A stretch of 64,000 bases of DNA from positions 74,989,601 to 75,053,600 of the forward strand of contig OZ026522.1 in NCBI GenBank assembly GCA_964019695.1, in the 5' to 3' direction. A program made the translations under genes and the position numbers. Shown here one piece after another: positions 1 through 61,597 of this stretch (positions are counted from its first letter, which is position 1; the number at the start of each line of letters is the position of its first letter). This DNA comes from Loripinus fragilis (taxonomy: Eukaryota; Mollusca; Bivalvia; Lucinida; Lucinidae). Under the pieces are notes generated by a model. That model did no database searches and was not told where the DNA came from. It saw only the letters and a list, made by a program, of their open reading frames with translations.

Positions 1-600
1 AAGATGCATCCACACACCAAATTTGGAATTCCAAACTCAAAGAATATAAGAGATATGCTCTGGACACAATAATTCTTAAAACTAGGTCAAAGGTCAAGGT
101 CACAGTGACCCAAAAATGGCATGTGACACCCCGTCATCCAAAGATGCATTTACACACCAAATTTGGAATTCCTATCTCAAAGAATATAGGAGATATACAC
201 CAGACTCAATGCAGTTTTCAAGAAACTAGGTCAGAGGTCAAGTTCAAGGTCACAGTGACCCAATTATGGTACGCGACACTTCGTCATCCCAAGATGCATC
301 CACACACCAAATTTGAGATTCCTACCTCAAATAATATAAGAGATATGCTCCGGACACGATTATTCTAAAAACTAGGTCAGAGGTCAAGGTCAAGGTGACC
401 TAAAAATGGTACGCGACACGTCGCCATCCCAAGATGTATCCACACACCAAATTTGGAATTCCTACCTCAAAGAATATAGGAGATATGGACCGGACACGAA
501 AGCGGGACAGACGGACTGACGGACGGACGGACGGACTGACGGACGGACGGACAGTGCGATTACTATATGCCTCCCAAAGTTCCTTTGGGGGCATAAAAAT
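1..600. mobile_element. pearl-like (HINE) element, 3' part, cut by the window edge
   Basis: Four tandem core units of about 140-150 bp (each with ATGCATCCACACACCAAATT and AGGTCAAGGTCA) lead into an ACGG microsatellite at about 507-552. The element closes with a hairpin CTCCCAAAGTTCCTTTGGGGG and ATAAAAA. This order (tandem core, ACGG tract, terminal hairpin) is that of bivalve pearl elements. Confidence 0.78.
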
Positions 601-1192: not shown

Positions 1193-1329
1193 TTACTAAT
1201 GTATGCAAAGAACCTACCTGCTCCACAACAGCTGTTAGACATCCAATATAAAATAAAGATAATACAAATGCAGGCCAAGCACCTAGATATCTCCTGAAAT
1301 AAAAGAAAGCACTTGTAAGTAAACATTCA

Positions 1330-3114: not shown

Positions 3115-3846
3115 GTAGGAGGTACATGTAATCTGACCAAGATGGAGGAAGTTACAATCTGGTAGATACTTACGCTGGTGGTATACAAGCTCCAACTATC
3201 TTCCAGAAGAATGTTAAGGAATGTAGGAGGTAATCTGACCAAGATGGAGGAAGTTACCATCTGGTAAATACTTACACTGGTGGTATACAAGCTCCAACTA
3301 TCTTCCAGAAGAATGTTAAGAAATGTAGGAGGTACATGTAATCTGACCAAGATGGAGGAAGTTACCATCAGGTAGAACGCTGGTGATATACAAGCTCCAA
3401 CTATTTTCTAGATGAATGTTAAGAAATGTAGGAGGTAATCTGACCAAGATGGAGGAAGTTACCATCTGGTAGATACTTACGCTGGTGGTATACATGCTCT
3501 AATTATATTCCAGATAAATGTTAAGAAATGTAGGAGGTATAATGACACAGATGGAGGAAGTTACTATCTGGTAGATACTTACGCTGGTGGTATACAAGCT
3601 CCAACTATCTTCCAGATAAATGTTAAGAAATGTAGGAGGTATAATGACCAAGATGGAGGAAGTTACCATCTGGTAGATACTTACGCTGGTGATATACAAG
3701 CTCCAACTATCTTCCAGATAAATGTTAAGAAATGTAGGAGGTATAATGACCAAGATGGAGGAAGTTACTATCTGGTAGTTACTTACGCTGGTGGTATACA
3801 TGCTCTAATTATATTCCAGAAGAATGTTAAGACATGTAGGAGGTAT

Positions 3847-4043
3847 TTTGTTTGATTTAATTCTTTACGTCCACTCAACAATCTTTCAGTTATGCGGGAC
3901 GGTTCTTCCTGGGTTTAACCAGTACTAAGCTAGGATAAATGTGTCTTGCTCAAGGACAACAACGCAGTGACGCCGGTGAGGCTCGAACCCGCTACCCTTC
4001 GGTCTCGAGTCAAGCACTCTACCACTGAGCCACTGCGCTCCCT
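3847..4043 (-). mobile_element. tRNA-derived SINE (family 1) inserted in the satellite, with 13-bp target-site duplication
   Basis: On the minus strand the element begins AGGGAGCGCAGTGGCTCAG with a tRNA-like A box (TGGCTCAGTGGTAGAGTGC) and B box (GGGTTCGAGCC). It continues through a conserved body (CTTAGTACTGGTT, CCCAGGAAGA) to a CAAA-rich tail. The satellite sequence ATGTAGGAGGTAT is repeated exactly at 3834-3846 and 4044-4056, a 13-bp target-site duplication. The insertion therefore happened after the array had spread to this point. Confidence 0.92.
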
Positions 4044-7000
4044 ATGTAGGAGGTATAATGACCAAGATGGAGGAAGTTACCATCTGGTAGATACTTACGC
4101 TGGTGGTATACATGCTCCAACTATCTTCCAGAAGAATGTTAAGAAATGTAGGAGGTAATCTGACCAAGATGGAGGAAGTTACCATCTGGTAGATACTTAC
4201 GCTGGTGGTATACATGCTCCAACTATCTTCCAGAAGAATGTTAAGAAATGTAGGAGGTAATCTGACCAAGATGGAGGAAGTTACCATCTGGTAGATACTT
4301 ACGCTGGTGGTATACAAGCTCCAACTATCTTCCAGAAGAATGTTAAGAAATGTAGGAGGTATAATGACCAAGATGGAGGAAGTTACCATCTGGTAGATAC
4401 TTACGCTGGTGGTATACATGCTCCAACTATCTTCCAGAAGAATGTTAAGAAATGTAGGAGGTATAATGACCAAGATGGAGGAAGTTACCATCTGGTAGAT
4501 ACTTACGCTGGTGGTATACAAGCTCCAACTATCTTCCAGAAGAATGTTAAGAAATGTAGGAGGTAATCTGACCAAGATGGAGGAAGTTACCATCTGGTAG
4601 ATACTTAGGCTGGTGGTATACAAGCTCCAACTATCTTCCAGAAGAATGTTAAGAAATGTAGGAAGTTATCTGACCAAGATGGAGGAAGTTACTATCTGGT
4701 AGATACTTACGCTGGTGGTATACAAGCTCCAACTATCTTCCAGAAGAATGTTAAGAAATGTAGGAGGTAATTTGACCAAGATTGAGGAAGTAACTATCTG
4801 GTAGATACTTAGCTGGTGGAATACAAGCTCCAACTATCTTCCAGAAGAATGTTAAGAAATGTAGGAAGTTATCTGACCAAGATGGAGTAAGTTACTATCT
4901 GGTAGATACTTAGCTGGTGGAATACAAGCTCCAACTATCTTCCAGAAGAATGTAAAGAAATGTAGGAGGTAATTTGACCAAGATTGAGGAAGTAACTATC
5001 TGGTAGATACTTACACTGGTGGTATACAAGCTCCAAGAAATGTAGGAGGTAATTTGACCAAGATTGAGGAAGTAACTATCTGGTAGATACTTATGCTGGT
5101 GGTATACAAGCTCGAACTATCTTCCAGAAGAATGTTAAGAAATGTAGGAGGTAATCTGACCAAGATGGAGGAAGTCACCATCTGGTAGATACTTACACTG
5201 GTGGTATACAAGCTCCAACTATCTTCCAGAAGAATGTTAAGAAATGTAGGAGGTAATTTGACCAAGATGGAGGAAGTTACTATCTGGTAGATACTTACGC
5301 TGGTGGTATACAAGCTCCAACTATCTTCCAGAAGAATGTTAAGAAATGTAGAAGGTAATCTGACCAAGACGAAGAAGTTACCATCTGGTAGATACTTACG
5401 CTGGTGGTATACAAGCTCCAACTATCTTCCAGAAGAATGTTAAGAAATGTAGGAAGTTATCTGACCAAGATGGAGGAAGTTACCATCTGGTAGATACTTA
5501 GCTGGTGGTATACAAGCTCCAACTATCTTCCAGAAGAATGTAAAGAAATGTAGGAGGTAATTTGACCAAGATGGAGGAAGTTACTATCTGGTAGATACTT
5601 ATGCTGGTGGTATACAAGCTCCAACTATCTTCCAGAAGAATGTAAAGAAATGAGGAGGTAATTTGACCAAGATGGAGGAAGTTACTATCTGGTAGATACT
5701 TATGCTGGTGGTATACAAGCTCGAACTATCTTCCAGAAGAATGTTAAGAAATGTAGGAGGTAATTTGACCAAGATGGAGGAAGTTACTATCTGGTAGATA
5801 CTTACGCTGGTGGTATACAAGCTCCCACTATCTTCCAGAAGAATGTTAAGAAATGTAGGAGGTAATTTGACCAAGATGGAGGAAGTCACCATCTGGTAGA
5901 TACTTACGCTGGTGGTATACAAGCTCCAACTACTTTTCAGAAGAATGTTAAGAAATGTAGGAGGTAATCTGACCAAGATGGAGGAAGTCACCATCTGGTA
6001 GATACTTACACTGGTGGTATACAAGCTCCAACTATCTTCCAGAAGAATGTTAAGAAATGTAGGAGGTAATCTGACCAAGATGGAGGAAGTCACCATCTGG
6101 TAGATACTTACACTGGTGGTATACAAGCTCCAACTATCTTCCAGAAGAATGTTAAGAAATGTAGGAGGTAATCTGACCAAGATGGAGGAAGTCACCATCT
6201 AGTAGATACTTACACTGGTGGTATACAAGCTCCAACTATCTTCCAGAAGAATGTTAAGAAATGTAGGAAGTTATCTGACCAAGATGGAGGAAGTTACCAT
6301 CTAGTAGATACTTACGCTGGTGGTATACAAGCTCCTGACTATCTTCCAGAAGAATGTAAAGAAATGTAGGAGGTAATTTGACCAAGATGGAGGAAGTTAC
6401 TATCTGGCAGATGCTTATGCTGGTGGTATACAAGCTCCAACTATCTTCCAGAAGAATGTTAAGAAATGTAGGAGGTAATCTGACCAAGATGGAGGAAGTC
6501 ACCATCTGGTAGATACTTACGCTGGTGGTATACAAGCTCCAACTATCTTCCAGAAGAATGTTAAGAAATGTAGGAGGTAATTTGACCAAGATGGAGGAAG
6601 TTACCATCTGGTAGATACTTCTGGTAGATACTTACACTGGTGGTATACAAGTTCCAACTTTCTTCCAGAAGAATGTTAAGAAATGTAGGAAGTTATCTGA
6701 CCAAGATGGAGGAAGTTACCATCTGGTAGATACTTAGCTGGTGGTATACAAGCTCCAACTATCTTCCAGAAGAATGTTAAGAAATGTAGGAGGTAATTTG
6801 ACCAAGATGGAGGAAGTTACTATCTGGTAGATACTTTTGCTGGTGGTATACAAGCTCCAACTATCTTCCAGAAGAATGTAAAGAAATGTAGGAGGTAATT
6901 TGACCAAGATGGAGGAAGTCACCATCTGGTAGATACTTACACTGGTGGATTACAAGCTCCAAGAAATGTAGGAGGTAATTTGACCAAGATGGAGGAAGTT

Positions 7001-8023
7001 ACTATCTGGTAGATGCTTATGCTGGTGGTATACAAGCTCCCACTATCTTCCAGAAGAATGTTAAGAAATGTAGGAGGTATTTGACCAAGATGAAGGAAGT
7101 TACCATCTGGTAGTACTTACACTGGTGATATACAAGCTCCAACTACTTTCCAGAAGAATGTTAAGAAATGTAGGAGGTAATCTGACCAAAATGGAGGAAG
7201 TTACCATCTGGTAGATACTTACGCTGGTGGTATACAAGTTCCCACTATCTTCCAGAAGAATGTTAAGAAATGTAGGAGGTAATTAGACCAAGATGGAGGA
7301 AGTTACTATCTGGTAGATACTTACGCTGGTGATATACAAGCTCCAACTATTTTCCAGAAGAATGGTAAGAAATGTAGGAGGTAATCTGACCAATTTGGAG
7401 GAAGTCACCATCTGGTAGATACTTAAGCTGGTGGTATACAAGCTCCCACTATCTTCCAGAAGAATGTTAAGAAATGTAGGAGGTAATTTGACCAAGATAG
7501 AGGAAGTTACTATCTGGTAGATACTTACGCTGGTGGTATACAAGCTCCAACTACTTTCCAGAAGAATGTTAAGAAATGTAGGAGGTAATCTGACCAAGAT
7601 GGAGGAAGTTACCATCTGGTAGATACTTACGCTGGTGGTATACAAGCTCCAACTATCTTCCAGAAGAATGTTAAGAAATGTAGAAGGTAATCTGACCAAG
7701 ATGGAGGAAGTTACTATCTGGTAGATACTTATGCTGGTGGTATACAAGCTCCCACTATCTTCCAGAAGAATGTTAAGAAATGTAGAAGGTAATCTGACCA
7801 AGATGGAGGAAGTTACTATCTGGTAGATGCTTATGCTGGTGGTATACAAGCTCCCACTATCTTCCAGAAGAATGTTAAGAAATGTAAGAGGTAATTTGAC
7901 CAAGATGGAGGAAGTTACCATCTGGTAGATGCTTATGCTGGTGGTATACAAGCTCCCACTATCTTCCAGAAGAATGTTAAGAAATGTAGGAGGTAATTTG
8001 ACCAAGATGGAGGAAGTTACCAT

Positions 8024-11000
8024 CTGGTAGATACTTCTGGTAGATACTTACACTGGTGGTTTACAAGCTCCCACTATCTTCCAGAAGAATGTTAAGAAAT
8101 GTAGGAGGTAATCTGACCAAGACGGAGGAAGTTACTATCTGGTAGATGCTTATGCTGGTGGTATACAAGCTCCCACTATCTTCCAGAAGAATGTTAAGAA
8201 ATGTAAGAGGTAATTTGACCAAGATGGAGGAAGTTACCATCTGGTAGATGCTTATGCTGGTGGTATACAAGCTCCCACTATCTTCCAGAAGAATGTTAAG
8301 AAATGTAGGAGGTAATTTGACCAAGATGGAGGAAGTTACTATCTGGTAGATACTTACACTGGTGGTATACAAGCTCCAACTATCTTCCAGAAGAATGTTA
8401 AGAAATGTAGGAGGTAATTTGACCAAGATGGAGGAAGTTACCATCTGGTAGATACTTACACTGGTGATATACAAGCTCAAACTACTTTCCAGAAGAATGT
8501 TAAGAAATGTAGGAGGTAATCTGACCAAGATGGAGGAAGTTACCATCTGGTAGATACTTACGCTGGTGGTATACAAGTTCCCACTATCTTCCAGAAGAAT
8601 GTTAAGAAATGTAGGAGGTAATTAGACCAAGATGGGGGAAGTTACTATCTGGTAGATACTTACGCTGGTGGTATACAAGCTCCAACTATTTTCCAGAAGA
8701 ATGGTAAGAAATGTAGGAGGTAATCTGACCAAGATGGAGGAAGTCACCATCTGGTAGATACTTAGGCTGGTGGTATACAAGCTCCCACTATCTTCCAGAA
8801 GAATGTTAAGAAATGTAGGAGGTAATTTGACCAAGATAGAGGAAGTTACTATCTGGTAGATACTTACGCTGGTGGTATACAAGCTCCAACTACTTTCCAG
8901 AAGAATGTTAAGAAATGTAGGAGGTAATCTGACCAAGATGGAGGAAGTTACCATCTGGTAGATACTTACGCTGGTGGTATACAAGCTCCCACTATCTTCC
9001 AGAAGAATGTTAAGAAATGTAGGAGGTAATTTGACCAAGATGGAGGAAGTTACTATCTGGTAGATACTTACGCTGGTGGTATACAAGCTCCCACTATCTT
9101 CCAGAAGAATGTTAAGAAATGTAGAAGGTAATTTGACCAAGTTGGAGGAAGTTACTTTCTGGTAGATACTTACGCTGGTGGTATACAAGCTCCAACTACT
9201 TTTCAGAAGAATGTTAAGAAATGTAGGAGGTAATCTGACCAAGATGGAGGAAGTTACCATCTGGTAGATACTTACGCTGGTGGTATACAAGCTCCCACTA
9301 TCTTCCAGAAGAATGTTAAGAAATGTAGAAGGTAATCTGACCAAGATGGAGGAAGTTACTATCTGGTAGATACTTATGCTGGTGGTATACAAGCTCCCAC
9401 TATCTTCCAGAAGAATGTTAAGAAATGTAGAAGGTAATCTGACCAAGATGGAGGAAGTTACTATCTGGTAGATACTTACGCTGGTGGTATACAAGCTCCC
9501 ACTATCTTCCAGAAGAATGTTAAGAAATGTAGGAGGTAATTTGACCAAGATGGAGGAAGTTACCATCTGGTAGATACTTCTGGTAGATACTTACACTGGT
9601 GGTTTACAAGCTCCCACTATCTTCCAGAAGAATGTTAAGAAATGTAGGAGGTAATCTGACCAAGACGGAGGAAGTTACTATCTGGTAGATGCTTATGCTG
9701 GTGGTATACAAGCTCCCACTATCTTCCAGAAGAATGTTAAGAAATGTAAGAGGTAATTTGACCAAGATGGAGGAAGTTACCATCTGGTAGATGCTTATGC
9801 TGGTGGTATACAAGCTCCCACTATCTTCCAGAAGAATGTTAAGAAATGTAGGAGGTAATTTGACCAAGATGGAGGAAGTTACTATCTGGTAGATACTTAC
9901 ACTGGTGGTATACAAGCTCCAACTATCTTCCAGAAGAATGTTAAGAAATGTAGGAGGTAATTTGACCAAGATGGAGGAAGTTACCATCTGGTAGATACTT
10001 ACACTGGTGATATACAAGCTCAAACTACTTTCCAGAAGAATGTTAAGAAATGTAGGAGGTAATCTGACCAAGATGGAGGAAGTTACCATCTGGTAGATAC
10101 TTACGCTGGTGGTATACAAGTTCCCACTATCTTCCAGAAGAATGTTAAGAAATGTAGGAGGTAATTAGACCAAGATGGGGGAAGTTACTATCTGGTAGAT
10201 ACTTACGCTGGTGGTATACAAGCTCCAACTATTTTCCAGAAGAATGGTAAGAAATGTAGGAGGTAATCTGACCAAGATGGAGGAAGTCACCATCTGGTAG
10301 ATACTTAGGCTGGTGGTATACAAGCTCCCACTATCTTCCAGAAGAATGTTAAGAAATGTAGGAGGTAATTTGACCAAGATAGAGGAAGTTACTATCTGGT
10401 AGATACTTACGCTGGTGGTATACAAGCTCCAACTACTTTCCAGAAGAATGTTAAGAAATGTAGGAGGTAATCTGACCAAGATGGAGGAAGTTACCATCTG
10501 GTAGATACTTACGCTGGTGGTATACAAGCTCCCACTATCTTCCAGAAGAATGTTAAGAAATGTAGGAGGTAATTTGACCAAGATGGAGGAAGTTACTATC
10601 TGGTAGATACTTACGCTGGTGGTATACAAGCTCCCACTATCTTCCAGAAGAATGTTAAGAAATGTAGAAGGTAATTTGACCTAGATGGAGGAAGTTACTT
10701 TCTGGTAGATACTTACGCTGGTGGTATACAAGCTCCAACTACTTTTCAGAAGAATGTTAAGAAATGTAGGAGGTAATCTGACCAAGATGGAGGAAGTTAC
10801 CATCTGGTAGATACTTACGCTGGTGGTATACAAGCTCCCACTATCTTCCAGAAGAATGTTAAGAAATGTAGAAGGTAATTTGACCTAGATGGAGGAAGTT
10901 ACTATCTGGTAGATACTTACGCTGGTGGTATACAAGCTCCAACTATCTTCCAGAAGAATGTTAAGAAATGTAGGAGGTAATCTGACCAAGATGGAGGAAG

Positions 11001-14000
11001 TTACTATCTGGTAGATACTTACGCTGGTGGTATACAAGCTCCAACTACTTTCCAGAAGAATGTTAAGAAATGTAGGAGGTAATCTGACCAAGATGGAGGA
11101 AGTTACCATCTGGTAGATACTTACGCTGGTGGTATACAAGCTCCAACTATCTTCCAGAAGAATGTTAAGAAATGTAGGAGGTAATTTGACCAAGATGGAG
11201 GAAGTTACTATCTGGTAGATACTTACGCTGGTGGTATACAAGCTCCAACTATCTTCCAGAAGAATGTTAAGAAATGTTGGAGGTAATTTGACCAAGATGG
11301 AGGAAGTTACCATCTGGTAGATACTTACGCTGGTGGTATACAAGCTCCAACTATCTTCCAGAAGAATGTTAAGAAATGTAGGAAGTTATCTGACCAAGAT
11401 GGAGGAAGTTACTATCTGGTAGATACTTACGCTGGCGGTATACAAGCTCCAACTATCTTCAAGAAGAATGTTAAGAAATGTAGGAGGTAATCTGACCAAG
11501 ATGGAGGAAATTACCATCTGGTAGATACTTACGCTGGTGGTATACAAGCTCCAACTATCTTCAAGAAGAATGTTAAGAAATGTAGGAGGTAATCTGACCA
11601 AGATGGAGGAAGTTTCCATCTGGTAGATACTTACGCTGGTGGTATACAAGCTCCAACTATCTTCCAGAAGAATGTTAAGAAATGCAGGAGGTAATCTGAC
11701 CAAGATGGAGGAAGTTACTATCTGGTAGATACTTATGCTGGTGGTATACAAGCTCCCACTATCTTCCAGAAGAATGTTAAGAAATGTAGAAGGTAATCTG
11801 ACCAAGATGGAGGAAGTTACTATCTGGTAGATACTTACGCTGGTGGTATACAAGCTCCCACTATCTTCCAGAAGAATGTTAAGAAATGTAGGAGGTAATT
11901 TGACCAAGATGGAGGAAGTTACCATCTGGTAGATACTTCTGGTAGATACTTACACTGGTGGTTTACAAGCTCCCACTATCTTCCAGAAGAATGTTAAGAA
12001 ATGTAGGAGGTAATCTGACCAAGACGGAGGAAGTTACTATCTGGTAGATGCTTATGCTGGTGGTATACAAGCTCCCACTATCTTCCAGAAGAATGTTAAG
12101 AAATGTAAGAGGTAATTTGACCAAGATGGAGGAAGTTACCATCTGGTAGATGCTTATGCTGGTGGTATACAAGCTCCCACTATCTTCCAGAAGAATGTTA
12201 AGAAATGTAGGAGGTAATTTGACCAAGATGGAGGAAGTTACTATCTGGTAGATACTTACACTGGTGGTATACAAGCTCCAACTATCTTCCAGAAGAATGT
12301 TAAGAAATGTAGGAGGTAATTTGACCAAGATGGAGGAAGTTACCATCTGGTAGATACTTACACTGGTGATATACAAGCTCAAACTACTTTCCAGAAGAAT
12401 GTTAAGAAATGTAGGAGGTAATCTGACCAAGATGGAGGAAGTTACCATCTGGTAGATACTTACGCTGGCGGTATACAAGTTCCCACTATCTTCCAGAAGA
12501 ATGTTAAGAAATGTAGGAGGTAATTAGACCAAGATGGGGGAAGTTACTATCTGGTAGATACTTACGCTGGTGGTATACAAGCTCCAACTATTTTCCAGAA
12601 GAATGGTAAGAAATGTAGGAGGTAATCTGACCAAGATGGAGGAAGTCACCATCTGGTAGATACTTAGGCTGGTGGTATACAAGCTCCCACTATCTTCCAG
12701 AAGAATGTTAAGAAATGTAGGAGGTAATTTGACCAAGATAGAGGAAGTTACTATCTGGTAGATACTTACGCTGGTGGTATACAAGCTCCAACTACTTTCC
12801 AGAAGAATGTTAAGAAATGTAGGAGGTAATCTGACCAAGATGGAGGAAGTTACCATCTGGTAGATACTTACGCTGGTGGTATACAAGCTCCCACTATCTT
12901 CCAGAAGAATGTTAAGAAATGTAGGAGGTAATTTGACCAAGATGGAGGAAGTTACTATCTGGTAGATACTTACGCTGGTGGTATACAAGCTCCCACTATC
13001 TTCCAGAAGAATGTTAAGAAATGTAGAAGGTAATTTGACCAAGTTGGAGGAAGTTACTTTCTGGTAGATACTTACGCTGGTGGTATACAAGCTCCAACTA
13101 CTTTTCAGAAGAATGTTAAGAAATGTAGGAGGTAATCTGACCAAGATGGAGGAAGTTACCATCTGGTAGATACTTACGCTGGTGGTATACAAGCTCCCAC
13201 TATCTTCCAGAAGAATGTTAAGAAATGTAGAAGGTAATTTGACCTAGATGGAGGAAGTTACTATCTGGTAGATACTTACGCTGGTGGTATACAAGCTCCA
13301 ACTATCTTCCAGAAGAATGTTAAGAAATGTAGGAGGTAATCTGACCAAGATGGAGGAAGTTACTATCTGGTAGATACTTACGCTGGTGGTATACAAGCTC
13401 CAACTACTTTCCAGAAGAATGTTAAGAAATGTAGGAGGTAATCTGACCAAGATGGAGGAAGTTACCATCTGGTAGATACTTACGCTGGTGGTATACAAGC
13501 TCCAACTATCTTCCAGAAGAATGTTAAGAAATGTAGGAGGTAATTTGACCAAGATGGAGGAAGTTACTATCTGGTAGATACTTACGCTGGTGGTATACAA
13601 GCTCCAACTATCTTCCAGAAGAATGTTAAGAAATGTTGGAGGTAATTTGACCAAGATGGAGGAAGTTACCATCTGGTAGATACTTACGCTGGTGGTATAC
13701 AAGCTCCAACTATCTTCCAGAAGAATGTTAAGAAATGTAGGAAGTTATCTGACCAAGATGGAGGAAGTTACTATCTGGTAGATACTTACGCTGGCGGTAT
13801 ACAAGCTCCAACTATCTTCCAGAAGAATGTTAAGAAATGTAGGAGGTAATCTGACCAAGATGGAGGAAGTTACCATCTGGTAGATACTTACGCTGGTGGT
13901 ATACAAGCTCCAACTATCTTCAAGAAGAATGTTAAGAAATGTAGGAGGTAATCTGACCAAGATGGAGGAAGTTTCCATCTGGTAGATACTTACGCTGGTG

Positions 14001-14060
14001 GTATACAAGCTCCAACTATCTTCCAGAAGAATGTTAAGAAATGCAGGAGGTAATCTGACC
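8024..14060. repeat. Higher-order duplications inside the satellite (shifts of 1,543 and 2,359 bp)
   Basis: A 13-bp partial duplication (CTGGTAGATACTT twice in a row) marks equivalent points at 8024, 9567 and 11926, and an older copy occurs at 6608. The block following 8024 recurs at 9567 (shift 1,543 = 15 units + 13 bp) and at 11926 (shift 2,359 = 23 units + 13 bp). Runs of several hundred bases after these points appear almost identical, for example 8061-8576, 9604-10119 and 11963-12478, and also 10885-11343 and 13244-13702. The array has grown recently by copying blocks of 15-23 units, not only single units. Confidence 0.9.
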
Positions 14061-14116
14061 AAGATGGAGGAAGTTCTTCACCATCTTCATCTGTTGAGCC
14101 ACCAACTGACATAGCA
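13994..14116 (-). CDS. NCX: NCX-type Na+/Ca2+ exchanger, internal exon: end of cytosolic loop and start of first C-terminal membrane helix; parent of the satellite
   Basis: This 123-bp exon has a CATATTTTCAG acceptor and a CCACCAGC|GTAAGTATC donor. It reads [18 protein letters not shown], then [22 protein letters not shown]. The match to vertebrate NCX is clear: AITVSAGEDDDD, then GEEKLPSCFDYVMHFL and TVFWKVLFAFVPP. It contains an acidic patch, the conserved D-Y-x-x-H-F-L-T-x-F-W-K, and the hydrophobic start of the membrane helix that opens the C-terminal transport domain. It ends in phase 2 at the PP(A/T) position. The last 80 bp plus 22 bp of intron are the unit amplified about 105 times immediately downstream (3115-14073). 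If the first donor is skipped, the frame enters the repeat and meets TAA directly after the Ala codon (GCG TAA). The alpha-2 repeat and remaining helices are not in the window. Confidence 0.9.
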
Positions 14117-14337: not shown

Positions 14338-14520
14338 TGCAGTGGCTCAGTGGTAGAGTGCTTGACTTGAAACTGAGGGGCCACGGGTTCAAGCCTCACC
14401 GGCATCACTGAAATGTGTCCTTGAGCAATTCTAGCTTAATACTGGTTCAACCCAGGAAGACCCGTCCCTTTATAACTGAAAGATTGTTGATGGGATGTAA
14501 AGAATCAAATCAAATAAACA
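14338..14520 (+). mobile_element. tRNA-derived SINE (family 1)
   Basis: It carries the A box TGGCTCAGTGGTAGAGTGC, the B box GGGTTCAAGCC and the family body ending in AAATCAAATAAAC. The first bases of the 5' end are missing. It sits in the 3.3-kb intron between the exons at 17387 and 13994, about 220 bp upstream (in gene orientation) of the acceptor of the latter. Confidence 0.85.
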
Positions 14521-17386: not shown

Positions 17387-17462
17387 CTATGAAACTGTCC
17401 TCTCCAAGTAGCCTCCTCCTCCTCCTCTTCCACTATATCAGCTATTCTCTCACCCAGGGCAT
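17387..17462 (-). CDS. NCX: NCX-type Na+/Ca2+ exchanger, internal exon: acidic linker after CBD2
   Basis: This 76-bp exon has a TTTGTTCAG acceptor and a CATAG|GTATGA donor. Its leading AT completes a GAT codon with the previous exon. The frame reads DALGERIADIVEEEEEEA, then TWRGQFH. The run of six Glu is encoded by a GAG-rich tract (plus-strand CCTCCTCCT). The T-W-R-x-Q-F motif matches the SWREQF motif that vertebrate NCX proteins carry at the end of the large cytosolic loop, just before the C-terminal membrane helices. The final AG joins the first T of the next exon to give Ser, producing QFHSAMSVGG, which aligns with QFIEAITVSAG. A palindromic MITE begins only 14 bp beyond the donor. This exon links the Calx-beta exons to the membrane exon and settles the gene as NCX rather than another Calx-beta protein. 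Confidence 0.85.
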
Positions 17463-30583: not shown

Positions 30584-32179
30584 AATTTAAAATTTAATTT
30601 ATTAGGTAAACATTTCGCCAATGAAGGGTTTTAAAAATATTTGAGCCTGCACTGTTTCTTAAACCAATAACATACATGAACTTTGTCACGTTCATGTAGA
30701 AAAGTCTGTGCTTTTAATGCGCTCTTGCCTTTGATCTTATCTGAAAGCATGTATCGCACAATTAGCAGACAAAAAGTATAGTCTTGCGCTCGGCATGCGA
30801 AAAAGAACATAACGTGCCAGATTACTCATTTAAGTAGAATGGAACCTTCCAAATGTCGCTGTACGGTATAAGTACGGACATCGATTTTCCGCCGAAAATA
30901 ACTTGTGTTCGTAATTTTAGAAATTCACTTTCTCAAAAAAGGTCAGTGTTTGATTTTTTAGGATGTTTTGAAAATTATTTTAGGCGATAATTTTAGGTGT
31001 TCGTAATTTTAGAGTGTTCGAAATTTTAGAACATTTACCGTACCTGCTGTTTATTTTTTTTACTTAATCTGTCAGTAATATTAGGCAATTATTTGCAGAA
31101 GGTGACTTCAGCAGACAATATTTTCAGATGCATTTTTTTTTCTTGGCGCTTTAAGGGTTAATAAAGCTTACAGTGTTTCTTGAATATTGATAGTCTCAGA
31201 CAAAATGCTAATACTTTCAAAATATGAATAATTCCAGGTTACTAGGATTATCAATAGCACTGGCTATTTGTGATGCATGTTCTGATACCAGCTAACAGCT
31301 GAGAAAGCCTCCCTTATTAACTCATAAAACATAATTTTGTGATACTTATTGTTTTTATCTGCTTTTCCAAAATAGTTCTTAATCGAAGTTTGGTAGTTAC
31401 GACATAAGGTAGCAGCGAAGCCTATAGTGGGCTGATCGAGAGCCTTTGCCACTCAGATATGCAAAGCATGGAAGCACATTGTAGAGGCAACAGACAAAAA
31501 CTAAAACTAAAATTCTAGCTCCAACAGATAGGTGGTTTAGTCTTTGAATGCTGGTTGTTGTCATCTGCAAAAATGATCTTTTTCAATTAAAAAAAATTCA
31601 GGAACGCTATCACTCTGACTGAATTTAAATAGTTTGAATCCAGACCAGGCCTGACATTCTGTTGCCCATGATCTGGGTCCAAACTGTTTGCAAAGGCTAT
31701 ATATGTGGGATACAAAATTTGCCCCAAGCAAGGAAAGACTTAAAGTGTTTTTTCTTTTAAAAAATAAATGCAATATGTTAAGTACCAATATTTTAGGCCA
31801 TCCTTTAAAAAATTGTTTGCTGTCACCCTACTCATAATTTTACAGGTGGGTAGGTAGGTAGGTAGGTATTTATTTTTTTTTCCGCTGATTTGTTTTAAAG
31901 ACATTAAAAATAAAGAAAAAAAAATGTCTAAAATTAGAATATTTTTTTTATTTCTCTGAAACGGCCATAAAATATTTTGGGTAGGTGGCTTTTTGAGAGT
32001 GTCGGTCGGGTGATGGAAAACAAATATTTTTTTAAGAATGGCCTTATGTGTTGGCCCATATGTAAATCAGTCACATGCAACTATATATTGGGTTGTTCTC
32101 AGAAATTTTCTAAGGCCCTCAATCTTGAGTATATGAAAAAGCACTTTTAAGAAATTCCATGACTACATAACATCTAGCG

Positions 32180-32374
32180 GGAGTGCAGTGGCTCAGTGGT
32201 AGAGTGCTTGACTAGAGACAGCAGGGTCGCGGGTTCCAGCTTCACCAGCGTCTTTGCGTTGTGTCCTTCAGTAAGACACATTAATCTTAGCTTAGTACTG
32301 GTTCAACCCAGGAAGGCCCGTCTAACGTAACTGAAAGATTGTTGACTGGGACGTAAAGAATCAAATCAAACAAA
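32180..32374 (+). mobile_element. tRNA-derived SINE (family 1) with 13-bp target-site duplication
   Basis: A full-length copy with A box, B box (GCGGGTTCCAGCTTC, slightly degraded), the CTTAGTACTGGTTCAACC body and an AAATCAAACAAA tail. ATAACATCTAGCG flanks it at 32167-32179 and 32375-32387. It lies in the 22.8-kb intron. Confidence 0.9.
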
Positions 32375-32403
32375 ATAACATCTAGCGCAGCTCGGCTTTA
32401 ATC

Positions 32404-41602: not shown

Positions 41603-41732
41603 CTTGGAATTTTTATTGATATCAATGGTGATGGTTTTTGAGGTTTCTGAGTGGTTGAACTGTAAGGTCCCTTGCTGTGACACGTAGTCAATTTTTGGTG
41701 AAAGCTCTGCTCCCCCAACAGCTGTACCATCG
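41603..41732 (-). CDS. NCX: NCX-type Na+/Ca2+ exchanger, internal exon: second part of the Calx-beta domain
   Basis: This 130-bp exon has a TTGTTTAG acceptor and a CCAAG|GTAAGC donor. The first base completes an Ile codon with the previous exon. The open frame then reads DGTAVGGAELSPKIDYVSQQ, GTLQFNHSETSKTITIDI, NKNSK. The D-G-T-A, G-G, D-Y-x-x-x-x-G-T-L-x-F and E-x-x-K-T-I-x-I elements are the diagnostic Calx-beta core. They align without gaps to NCX CBD2 (EGTARGGGEDFED, then GELEF and KTISVKV). The loop after the KTI strand, usually acidic (DDEEYE in vertebrates), is here NKNSKG and contains no acidic residue. The exon ends in phase 0. A tRNA-derived SINE ends about 25 bp upstream of the acceptor. 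The identification is secure for the Calx-beta domain and strong for NCX because of the exons that follow. Confidence 0.87.
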
Positions 41733-42961: not shown

Positions 42962-43975
42962 ACATTCGATGGCGCGCCATCGCAAATCCCCACGCTCTCG
43001 AAGAAATGTAATGGTAATTGACCCTTTGACCCCATCCCAAGGTCACCAGTTTGATCGTAGGTTAAAATTTTTCAGTGTATCCTGGTCTACTGCAAATTCC
43101 CTTTAATTTGATATGCCACATGACCATGTTCAGAAAATTAAATTTTTGACCCCTCCCCAAGGCCCCAGGGGCTGAGGACCCAAAAAATTGTGCCGCTGCA
43201 TGTGCAATTCATGTAAGTAACTAGCACACCAAATCTGGCTGAATTTCGGAAAAAAAAAATTTGTGGCCCCCCAACCCCCACGGTACCCCAAAGTCCCACC
43301 CCTGGGCATGACCCAGGCGCCTTAATGAAAATTCCGTCTGATATGTTATATATCTTTCATATGTGAGAAGATACACAAAGTTTGGTTTAAAAATCTTTGA
43401 AATTGACTTTGTAATTCAGATTTCATGATATTTGACCTTTTGGCCCCTCCCCAGGGCCCCAGGGGGCGGGGACCCAAAAAATGGTGCCGTTGCATATGCC
43501 ATTCATGTAAGTAACTCACACAACAAATCTGGTTGAATTTCGGAAAAAAAAAATTTTGACCCCACAACCCCCCACGGTACCCCCAAGTCCCACCCCTGGG
43601 GCATGACCCAGGCGGCCAAATGAAAATCCCGTCTGATATGTTTTATATCTTTCATTTGTGAGAAGACACACAAAGTTTGGTTTAAAAATCTTTGAAATTG
43701 ACTTAGTAATTGAAATTTAATGATATTTAATGATATTTGACCTTTTGGCCCCTCCCCAGGGCCCCAGGGGGCGGGGCCAAAAAAAAATGTGTCGTTGCAT
43801 ACCCCATTCATGTGAGCAACACACACACCAAATTTGGTTGGATTTCGTCCAATGGTTTAGGAGGAGATAGTGTGACGGACGGACGGATGGACGGACAGAC
43901 GGACGGACAGACGGACGGAGGCGATTGCAATATCCCCGACGCTTTTTTAAAAAAGCGTGGGGATAATTATTGAAC
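42962..43975. mobile_element. pearl-like (HINE) element, ~300-bp core x3
   Basis: The left hairpin GATGGCGCGCCATC at about 42970 is followed by three core units about 295-300 bp apart (GGCCCCAGGGG at 43163, 43457 and 43760). A pure GACGGACGG tract follows at 43875-43920, and the right hairpin is TCCCCGACGCTTTTTTAAAA, AAGCGTGGGGA. Frames of 73-107 codons over it are artefacts. Confidence 0.82.
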
Positions 43976-44875: not shown

Positions 44876-44999
44876 ATGGTAGCATATTGCATGGTGACTA
44901 CTCCATCAAAGCCGTGGTCTCTCTCAACCTTGACAACAACATTGCCTTCTTCTAAGTTAGCTATACAGTGATCTTGACTGAACTCAAACTCACCAGGTT
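44876..44999 (-). CDS. NCX: NCX-type Na+/Ca2+ exchanger, internal exon: first half of a Calx-beta domain (CBD2 position)
   Basis: This 124-bp exon is the most upstream confident exon of the gene. On the minus strand it follows a TTTCTATACAG acceptor and ends at an AT|GTAAGT donor (GT at 44875-44874). It reads in one open frame after two leading bases: PGEFEFSQDHCIANLEEG, then VVVKVERDHGFDGVVTMQYAT. This is the start of a Calx-beta domain: the F-F strand, the E-E-G turn, the VKV-R-G strand and the Y-x-T strand. Mammalian NCX CBD2 has the same spacing (G-I-F-T-F ... VKVLR ... YKTI). The exon starts with two codon bases (phase 1 in) and ends with two (phase 2 out). Joined to the exon at 41603-41732 it makes a seamless Y-A-T-I-D-G-T-A. 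A SINE tail lies within about 7 bp of its donor, and another SINE begins about 55-70 bp beyond its acceptor. Other Calx-beta proteins (ADGRV1, FREM) are possible for this exon alone, but the downstream exons point to NCX. Confidence 0.85.
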
Positions 45000-45070: not shown

Positions 45071-45268
45071 TGTTTGTTTGATTTGATGCTTTACGTCCCA
45101 TCAACAGTCTTTCAGTTATAAATAGACGGGTCTTCCTGGGTTTAACCAGTACTAAGCTAGGATTAATGTTCTTGCTCAAGGACACAACGCAGTGACGCCG
45201 GTGAGGCTCGAACCCACGGCCCTTCAGTCTTGAGTCAAGCACTCTACCACTGAGCCACTGCGCTCCCT
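45071..45268 (-). mobile_element. tRNA-derived SINE (family 1) with 15-bp target-site duplication
   Basis: A minus-orientation copy with intact A and B boxes. CTTTCTCTTTCTGTT occurs at 45056-45070 and again at 45269-45283. It lies just upstream (in gene orientation) of the exon at 44876-44999. Confidence 0.92.
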
Positions 45269-59829: not shown

Positions 59830-60890
59830 GGACTTGATCTAGCTGATAAGCAGCATGGCCACCTAGCTGATAAGATCATTTCACAGGTAAACTTCACATA
59901 AAAGTATTAACCAATCAAATTGTTGGATTAGATGACCACTGAACTAATCTATGCTTGATGGTAAGCAGTATAGCCACCTAAATGATAAGAGTTGTCAGTC
60001 ATTTCACAGGTAAATTGCACAGAAAAGTATTAACCAATCAAATTGTTGGATTAGATGACCACTGAACTAATCTATGCTTGATGGTTAGCAGTATGGCCAC
60101 CTAAATGATAAGAGTTGTCAGTCATTTCACAGGTAAACTGCACAGAAAAGTATTAACCAATCAAATTGTTGGATTAGATGACCACTGACCTAATCTATGG
60201 GAGCTGATAAGCAGCATGGCCACCTAGCTGATAAGAGTTGTCAGTCATTTCACAGGTAAACTGCACAGAAAAGTATTAACAAATCAAATTGTTGGATTAG
60301 ATGACCACTGAACTAATCTATGCTTGATGGTTAGCAGTATGGCCACCTAAATGATAAGAGTTGTCAGTCATTTCACAGGTAAACTGCACAGAAAAGTATT
60401 AACCAATCAAATTGTTGGATTAGATGACCACTGACCTAATCTATGGGAGCTGATAAGCAGCATGGCCACCTAGCTGATAAGAATTGTCAGTCATTTCACA
60501 GGTAAACTGCACATAAAAGTATTAACAAATCAAATTGTTGGATTAGATGACCACTGAACTAATCTATGCTTGATGGTAAGCAGCATGGCCACCTAGCTGA
60601 TAAGAGTTGTCAGTCATTTCACAGGTAAACTGCACAGAAAAGTATAAACCAATCAAATTGTTGGATTAGATGACCACTGAACTAATCTATGCTTGATGGT
60701 AAGCAGCATGGCCACCTAGCTGATAAGAATTGTCAGTCATTTCACAGGTTAACTGCAAAGAAAAGTATTAACAAATCAAATTGTTGGATTAGATGACCAC
60801 TGACCTTATCTATGCTAGCTGACTAGCAGCATGGCCACCTAGCTGATAAGAATTGTCAGTCATTTCACAGGTTAACTGTACAGAAAAATA
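59830..60890. repeat. 123-bp tandem array, 9 copies
   Basis: The word TCATTTCACAGG occurs at 59876, 59999, 60122, 60245, 60368, 60491, 60614, 60737 and 60860, an exact 123-bp period. Units contain AATCAAATTGTTGGATTAGA, TGACCACTGAACTAATCTAT and two alternating versions of the GCAGCATGGCCACCTAG segment. The versions (TGCTTGATGGT versus GGGAGCTGATA) recur in a pattern that suggests two-unit duplication. No protein-like frame was recognised. Confidence 0.92.
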
Positions 60891-61597
60891 ACAACCAAAT
60901 TAGAGATATTAAATGTTTACTCTTATATGGTTATTGGATTTATGAGAAAAGGTGGCTAACTTTGCCATATTTGTCAGTCTTGCTTAGCTAAGAACATTTC
61001 CATATCCTGAAAAGAAGCCGTGATAATAGGGTCTATTTTGTCGTTTTGTGCCAGTTGCTAGCCTAACAACGGTGTAACTGGAATGTGTTACACAGCAGAA
61101 ATGAAACTTTAATGAGCCCTTTTATACTATACTTTATACAAAATATAAAATTTACCTTATCTAATTAAACAATAACATAGCACTTAATAACAGTGAGTTT
61201 TGCAGTGATCAGACAAAAATATGAAGAAATGTTTTATATTGCATTTATGTGACACAACTTTTCTTTTTTATTTTAAGTAGATTTAAGAGAAGTTTTGACA
61301 AGAAAAGGTCTACAAGCAACAATTTTATAATAAAATATAACAAACAAAGACAGAAATTAAATTAGAAATAATCAAAAATTGTTAACATTTGAGAACAAGA
61401 AACAGTCAATGTTAAAATCAGAACTACTGATCCAAAATACTCAAAGCAAGTACATGTAATTGTAACAATAAAAAATATAGTCAACAATCAACACATTTTG
61501 GATTATTTTTAAAGTTTTGAACAAAAGTTACCTTTAGAACCTGTACAACATAAATGATATTGTGAAAGCACAAGAAATAATACTATGGTTTGATAAT

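Follow-up and report, generated by a model that had tools for sequence, protein, structure and literature searches.

A tandem array built from the 3' edge and splice donor of a sodium/calcium exchanger exon in the bivalve Loripinus fragilis

Results

Gene context of the array

The window analysed here, a stretch of 64,000 nucleotides from the lucinid bivalve Loripinus fragilis, carries exons of a sodium/calcium exchanger gene (NCX, SLC8), a long tandem array and several other repeats (Table 1). Exons A and B together encode a Calx-beta domain (Pfam PF03160, E 1.7e-11), and two further matches of the Calx-beta type lie upstream of the window. Exon E is bounded by an acceptor ending in TTTTCAG and by the donor GTAAGTATC, both read directly from the sequence. 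The alignment to NCX proteins suggested by an earlier sequence-only reading of this stretch bears out the assignment, as the 40-residue translation of exon E matches the human NCX1 chains in PDB (E 6e-07). When exons D, E and F are joined, 72 residues align to human NCX1 (E 2.5e-16, with R in place of S at one join of the query), and this joined peptide on its own gives no Pfam match at E<=1. Exons D to I join in phase, and exons G, H and I, located beyond the window, continue in phase to the stop codon and encode the motif GTSLPDTFAS. The gene thus combines a Calx-beta domain, an alpha-2 repeat with GTSxPDTFAS and the exon phase by which NCX (SLC8) genes are recognized. A weak NCX-like match at 612-562 was dismissed as a chance hit (E 1.8).

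The C-terminal part of the gene looks intact, judging from these joins. Within the 144 kb examined, no significant tblastn match was obtained for the N-terminal half (alpha-1 repeat), which may be located further upstream, and an exon between B and D was not found. Since neither was located in these 144 kb, describing the gene as a working one is an extrapolation from its C-terminal part.

Table 1. Positions of exons, repeats and related features; coordinates refer to the window unless a locus is named
Feature	Position	Strand	Basis
Exon A, start of the Calx-beta domain shared with exon B	44876..44999	-	AT|C join to exon B, giving ATIDGTA
Exon B, part of the Calx-beta domain	41603..41732	-	PF03160 on exons A and B
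Exon D, ending in EEATWRGQFH	17387..17462	-	AG|T join to exon E, giving S; joined alignment; coordinates counted by hand
Exon E, complete copy, 123 bp	13994..14116	-	Acceptor and donor read; match to NCX1 in PDB; contains array row 0
Exon F, next after exon E, 76 bp, RYLGAWPAFVLSLFYIGCLTAVVEQ	1218..1293	-	Phase fits exon E (GC|G)
102-bp tandem array of exon 3' edge and 5' splice site	3128..14075	-	Tandem Repeats Finder; wrap-around alignment
Proximal copy of the 2,359-bp (23-unit) block duplication, including the last 82 bp of exon E	11689..14075	-	Self-alignment
Unit 23, hybrid of array unit and exon	11635..11736	-	Column comparison
tRNA-derived SINE within the array	3847..4043	-	Array sequence ATACCTCCTACAT (13 bp) on either side
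Acceptor-edge array of the C3 paralogue, with complete exon	L033:6344-7317 = C3:2899344-2900317		
Parent exon of the C3 paralogue array	L033:6521-6344		

Extent and unit of the array

Tandem Repeats Finder describes the array as a minus-strand repeat with a period of 102 bp, and wrap-around alignment resolves it into 108 rows. Row 0 consists of the last 82 bp of exon E, rows 1-106 are repeat units and row 107 is a partial unit of 46 bp. Rows 98-100 represent a single unit interrupted by a SINE; leaving aside row 0 and the partial unit, the array holds this unit and 103 others, 104 in total. These numbers agree with the sequence-only reading, which had counted about 105 copies and had taken the exon itself as the first unit; row 0 indeed lies within exon E, where the array starts. 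All counts given below for 103 units exclude rows 0, 98-100 and 107. The mean identity of these units to their consensus is 96.4%, and the regularity of the array is far beyond chance. With exon F at 1293-1218, the array occupies most of the 12.7-kb intron between exons E and F. It adjoins exon E directly and repeats its 5' splice site, as in a splice-donor VNTR.

The unit joins the 3' end of exon E to the donor GTAAGT and about 13-20 intron bases. In the sequence-only reading it had been divided into 80 exon and 22 intron bases; the exon edge, the donor and some intron sequence are confirmed, and the exact division is challenged by the heptamer AGATGGT in the unit, which has a counterpart in the exon, 4 bp upstream of the 82-bp block. 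On the basis of this 7-bp match, the sole evidence for such a division, the seed may have comprised 89 exon bases (AGATGGT, a 4-bp gap corresponding to GAAG, which would have been lost, and the last 82 bp) and 13 intron bases, with 80 plus 22 as the alternative.

The SINE within the array measures 197 bp, and its 13-bp target duplication ATACCTCCTACAT, found at 4044-4056 and 3834-3846, consists of array sequence. Other copies of the same tRNA-derived family occur in the window at 41956-41758, 45268-45073, 32179-32377, 14339-14518 and, in part, at 38383-38271; their similarity to the copy inside the array is 82-91%, and the one at 45268 is called as a tRNA by both ARAGORN and Rfam.

A single locus in the genome

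A 27-bp pattern spanning the exon-intron junction found 102 matches in the 1.987-Gb assembly when up to three mismatches were allowed, and the same number, 102, in the window; the 100 genome matches that were listed all fall inside the array, and the reversed control pattern gave 0 matches. As the two counts are equal, this is an array at a single locus and not a dispersed satellite. A 247-bp DNA query gave at least 48 matches in the genome, all within the array. With a 65-residue protein query covering exons E and F (E<=10), 108 matches were obtained, of which one is exon F, three lie elsewhere (C1:130982578, C3:49321690 and C3:2897267, one match each) and, by subtraction, 104 belong to exon E and the array.

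A repeat of mobile or dispersed origin that resembles the exon by chance, similar to the arrays carried by oyster Helentrons, would have precedent in bivalves, since dispersed tandem arrays are described as common in oyster in the abstract of one study (PMC7492417). Against such an origin, the unit is coding sequence of an exon that resembles human NCX1, and it was found at one locus only. Dispersal of the unit through the genome, which the sequence-only reading had named as fatal to a local exon-derived origin, was refuted at the sensitivity of the DNA, protein and pattern searches used, and we give this explanation a practically negligible probability. The term satellite, used in that reading, was in turn an overstatement: satellites are recognized by arrays at numerous loci or by extensive heterochromatic blocks, whereas the searches recovered one place, with 102 matches in the genome against 102 in the window. 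With the in-phase exon joins, the alignment of D-E-F to human NCX1 and no second locus of the repeat found in these searches, the proposed origin from the edge of the NCX exon holds, and the derivation can be regarded as secure from the sequence.

Variation among units and their donors

Changes in the units are not independent because blocks have been duplicated, and constraint was therefore assessed from distinct changes. In the exon-derived part of the 103 units, these amount to 13 of 54 possible synonymous, 32 of 167 nonsynonymous and 3 of 13 stop changes, and a constrained peptide encoded by the array was rejected. The exact exon peptide is kept in 15 of the 103 units, a stop occurs in 8 and an indel in 11. 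Variants number 52 over the 82 exon-derived columns and 13 over the 20 intron-derived ones.

A cluster of tandem, mutually exclusive alternative exons was considered, given that the unit length of 102 bp is a multiple of three, that the donor is kept in units and that an AG (TCAG) preceded by a run rich in pyrimidines is kept in 52 of 104 rows. In such a cluster each copy has an acceptor, a donor and an open, constrained frame, but the copies here are without the parental acceptor and exon start, a TAA follows the exon in frame at the donor, and coding constraint is absent. This explanation was rejected as extremely improbable.

Of the 103 units, 76 have an intact donor GTAAGT, and the first such unit carries the true donor. 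The sole CpG of the unit is formed by the C|G at the exon-intron junction, and the 102 junctions read CG in 57, CA in 17 and TG in 14 cases, with 14 others. Among the 27 units that have lost the first G of the donor, 17 have G changed to A, which fits CpG deamination; these CpG counts were not restricted to distinct changes and are non-independent owing to block duplication. Downstream of the first donor, 66 intact GTAAGT donors were tested (units 2-97), and splicing at each of them would bring in the same immediate stop (PPA-stop). Their use would thus yield truncated or decayed mRNA and no new protein, so that a full exchanger requires use of the first donor, which is presumably the one used in vivo.

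These donors suggest a further possibility, namely that the array acts as a functional splicing rheostat in which many decoy 5' splice sites would sequester U1 and the amount of full-length exchanger would be set by the length of the array. The retention of GTAAGT in 76 of 103 units and the identical truncated frame produced from 66 of 66 tested downstream donors would agree with this, as would the increase in skipping of the next exon with array length described in passages of a study of human ABCA7 (PMC5954066). On the other hand, the same passages report that retention of the repeat unit does not change with length, and no sign of constraint is seen in the NCX array: its exon-derived parts are as variable as its intron-derived parts, and among the 27 units lacking the donor G, 17 (again non-independent counts) show the CpG-type G-to-A change. 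The three paralogous places found with the E-F protein query, moreover, were matched only once each. We consider a rheostat unlikely.

Growth of the array and exchange with the exon

Self-alignment shows that the first 23 units have been duplicated as a block, with 2,387 aligned bp, 5 mismatches and a shift of 2,359 bp. The duplicated tract includes the last 82 bp of the exon, since it starts at 14075, where the homology between exon and units starts. Unit 23, at the end of the block duplication, is a hybrid: its columns 0-47 are those of array unit 46 (also of unit 62), and its columns 20-101 are those of the exon. The G at column 51 is exclusive to unit 23 and the exon. A point of exchange between exon and array unit within the 28 bp at 11716-11689 would explain this structure. 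The position of the hybrid at the end of a block with 5 mismatches implies that the exon was a recent partner in exchange, and the reciprocal product would have placed array-derived sequence in the exon.

Apart from unit 23, the exon shows one synonymous difference to every unit that has a base at that site, and the exon is therefore not the unchanged direct seed of the recent units. The mean identity to the exon is 0.959 for units 1-23, 0.956 for 24-45, 0.950 for 46-67, 0.954 for 68-91, 0.965 for 92-97 and 0.931 for 101-106; no clean gradient of divergence with distance from the exon is apparent in the means of these six groups.

Near-identical blocks of 2,359 bp can be misjoined by assemblers, and the array could on that ground be an artefact, with few copies at the true locus. 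This seems very unlikely, as private and shared changes distinguish the units, five changes separate the two block copies, a SINE bearing a target duplication of its own interrupts the array, and the array is situated within a contig of 99.5 Mb.

Arrays at paralogous exchanger loci

At one of the NCX paralogues (C3:2893001-2903000), a 130-bp array of 7.0 copies was found, made of six upstream copies, each comprising the acceptor and about 106 bp from the start of an exon some 178 bp long. The copies are spaced at 130, 127, 130, 130, 130 and 130 bp. Their first 108 bp are identical across all six and differ from the exon by one substitution and a 3-bp deletion. This array is young, corresponds to another part of the protein and is the acceptor-side mirror image of the main array.

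After filtering (period of at least 25, at least 2.5 copies, overlapping rows merged, 43144-43847 excluded), 13 arrays were counted over 190 kb of NCX loci, of which 2 lie on an exon edge. A chance model with these 13 arrays and about 20 exons predicts 0.32 exon-edge seeds, as compared to the two seen (P 0.039); with 12 arrays, 0.29 are expected (P 0.033). The first case was pre-selected, and the probability of at least one among the other 12 arrays is 0.26; the two cases are hence no proof of a preference for exon edges. Random seeding combined with tolerance is enough as an explanation.

Further tandem arrays were noted at these loci. One in the window (59847-60898; 123 bp, 8.6 copies) has on the minus strand an acceptor-like pyrimidine stretch and CAG in most units, and no NCX exon match was found near it. 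A 140-bp array of about 9.8 copies crosses the left edge of the window (1-499 and the adjoining 900 bases), and the C1 paralogue carries a 33-bp array of 27.9 copies (L031:2637-3561) in the intron corresponding to the array-bearing one described here.

Discussion

Origin and consequences of the array

The array is real, correctly derived and locally unusual. It lies at one locus in one orientation, its unit joins exon edge, donor and intron, and it has grown by blocks, with at least one unequal exchange involving the last 82 bp of the exon. We propose that it is most likely a neutral expansion, tolerated through the retained complete exon. A short tandem duplication across the end of exon E, covering its 3' edge and the 5' splice site, would have seeded the array in the following intron. 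Such an expansion would be tolerated since it leaves a full copy of the exon, acceptor included, and since the first donor encountered is still the one closest to the exon body; the copies would then evolve neutrally. Any effect of the array would probably be length-dependent splicing noise, comparable to what has been measured in human ABCA7, where the next exon is skipped. The whole of this scenario, a tolerated neutral tandem expansion from a local seed across the exon edge, with growth in blocks and exchange with the exon, has in our view a high probability.

More speculative is a wider reading, which has some chance of being right albeit a small one: exon edges of working genes could be recurrent seeds of arrays in this genome, on the donor as well as the acceptor side, with the live exon still exchanging sequence with its decaying copies. 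The array would then serve as a store of coding changes able to pass back into the gene and, through its length, as a dial for splicing.

The locus offers a readable case in which the edge of a coding exon has grown into a large tandem array without loss of the complete exon, and in which a footprint of exchange between exon and array is present. It makes testable whether mutations of the array are fed back into the exon, and how the splicing machinery handles an intron containing dozens of identical donors. That a paralogue has a mirror-image array hints that the process is general and countable, and not a freak.

Comparison with known systems

The closest counterpart is the 25-bp VNTR in intron 18 of human ABCA7, whose first two bases are the donor of exon 18 and which reaches up to 10,678 bp, or about 427 units, according to passages of its description (PMC5954066). 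The same passages state that retention of one unit causes a frameshift and a premature stop, and that it is the skipping of exon 19, not unit retention, which rises with array length (PMC5954066). As far as those passages go, both arrays lie inside a gene, start at the 5' splice site of an exon and carry a donor in each unit. They differ in that the ABCA7 unit is 25 bp long, intronic and begins at the donor GT, whereas the NCX unit is 102 bp long and consists mostly of coding exon, and in that the NCX exon has exchanged sequence with its array.

A second counterpart is the human IFI6/6-16 (G1P3) minisatellite, the original account of which is reportedly that of Turri et al. 1995; its unit is about 12 bp, unlike the 102 bp of the NCX array. 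Its repeat units serve as several splice donor sites, as stated in passages of two papers (PMC4526556, PMC3618361), and two downstream units are used as donors according to one of these (PMC4526556). Both arrays thus have donor-bearing units; use of downstream donors is, on the evidence of those passages, described for IFI6. A more distant likeness is with the dispersed tandem repeats carried by Helentrons in oyster (PMC7492417), which are also satellite-like arrays outside heterochromatin; the NCX array differs from what is described there in having one locus and in deriving from a coding exon of the host.

The claim of exceptionality made from the sequence is therefore only partly right. ABCA7 and IFI6/6-16 show that arrays of this kind are already known, so that the NCX array is an extreme variant and no new category, and the acceptor-side array of the C3 paralogue is a further precedent. 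In the open-licence literature, judged from titles, beginnings of abstracts and some passages, no case of a coding-exon unit of such size was found. New in comparison with the cases found there are the unit made of coding exon, the scar of exchange between exon and array, and the mirror-image array on the acceptor side.
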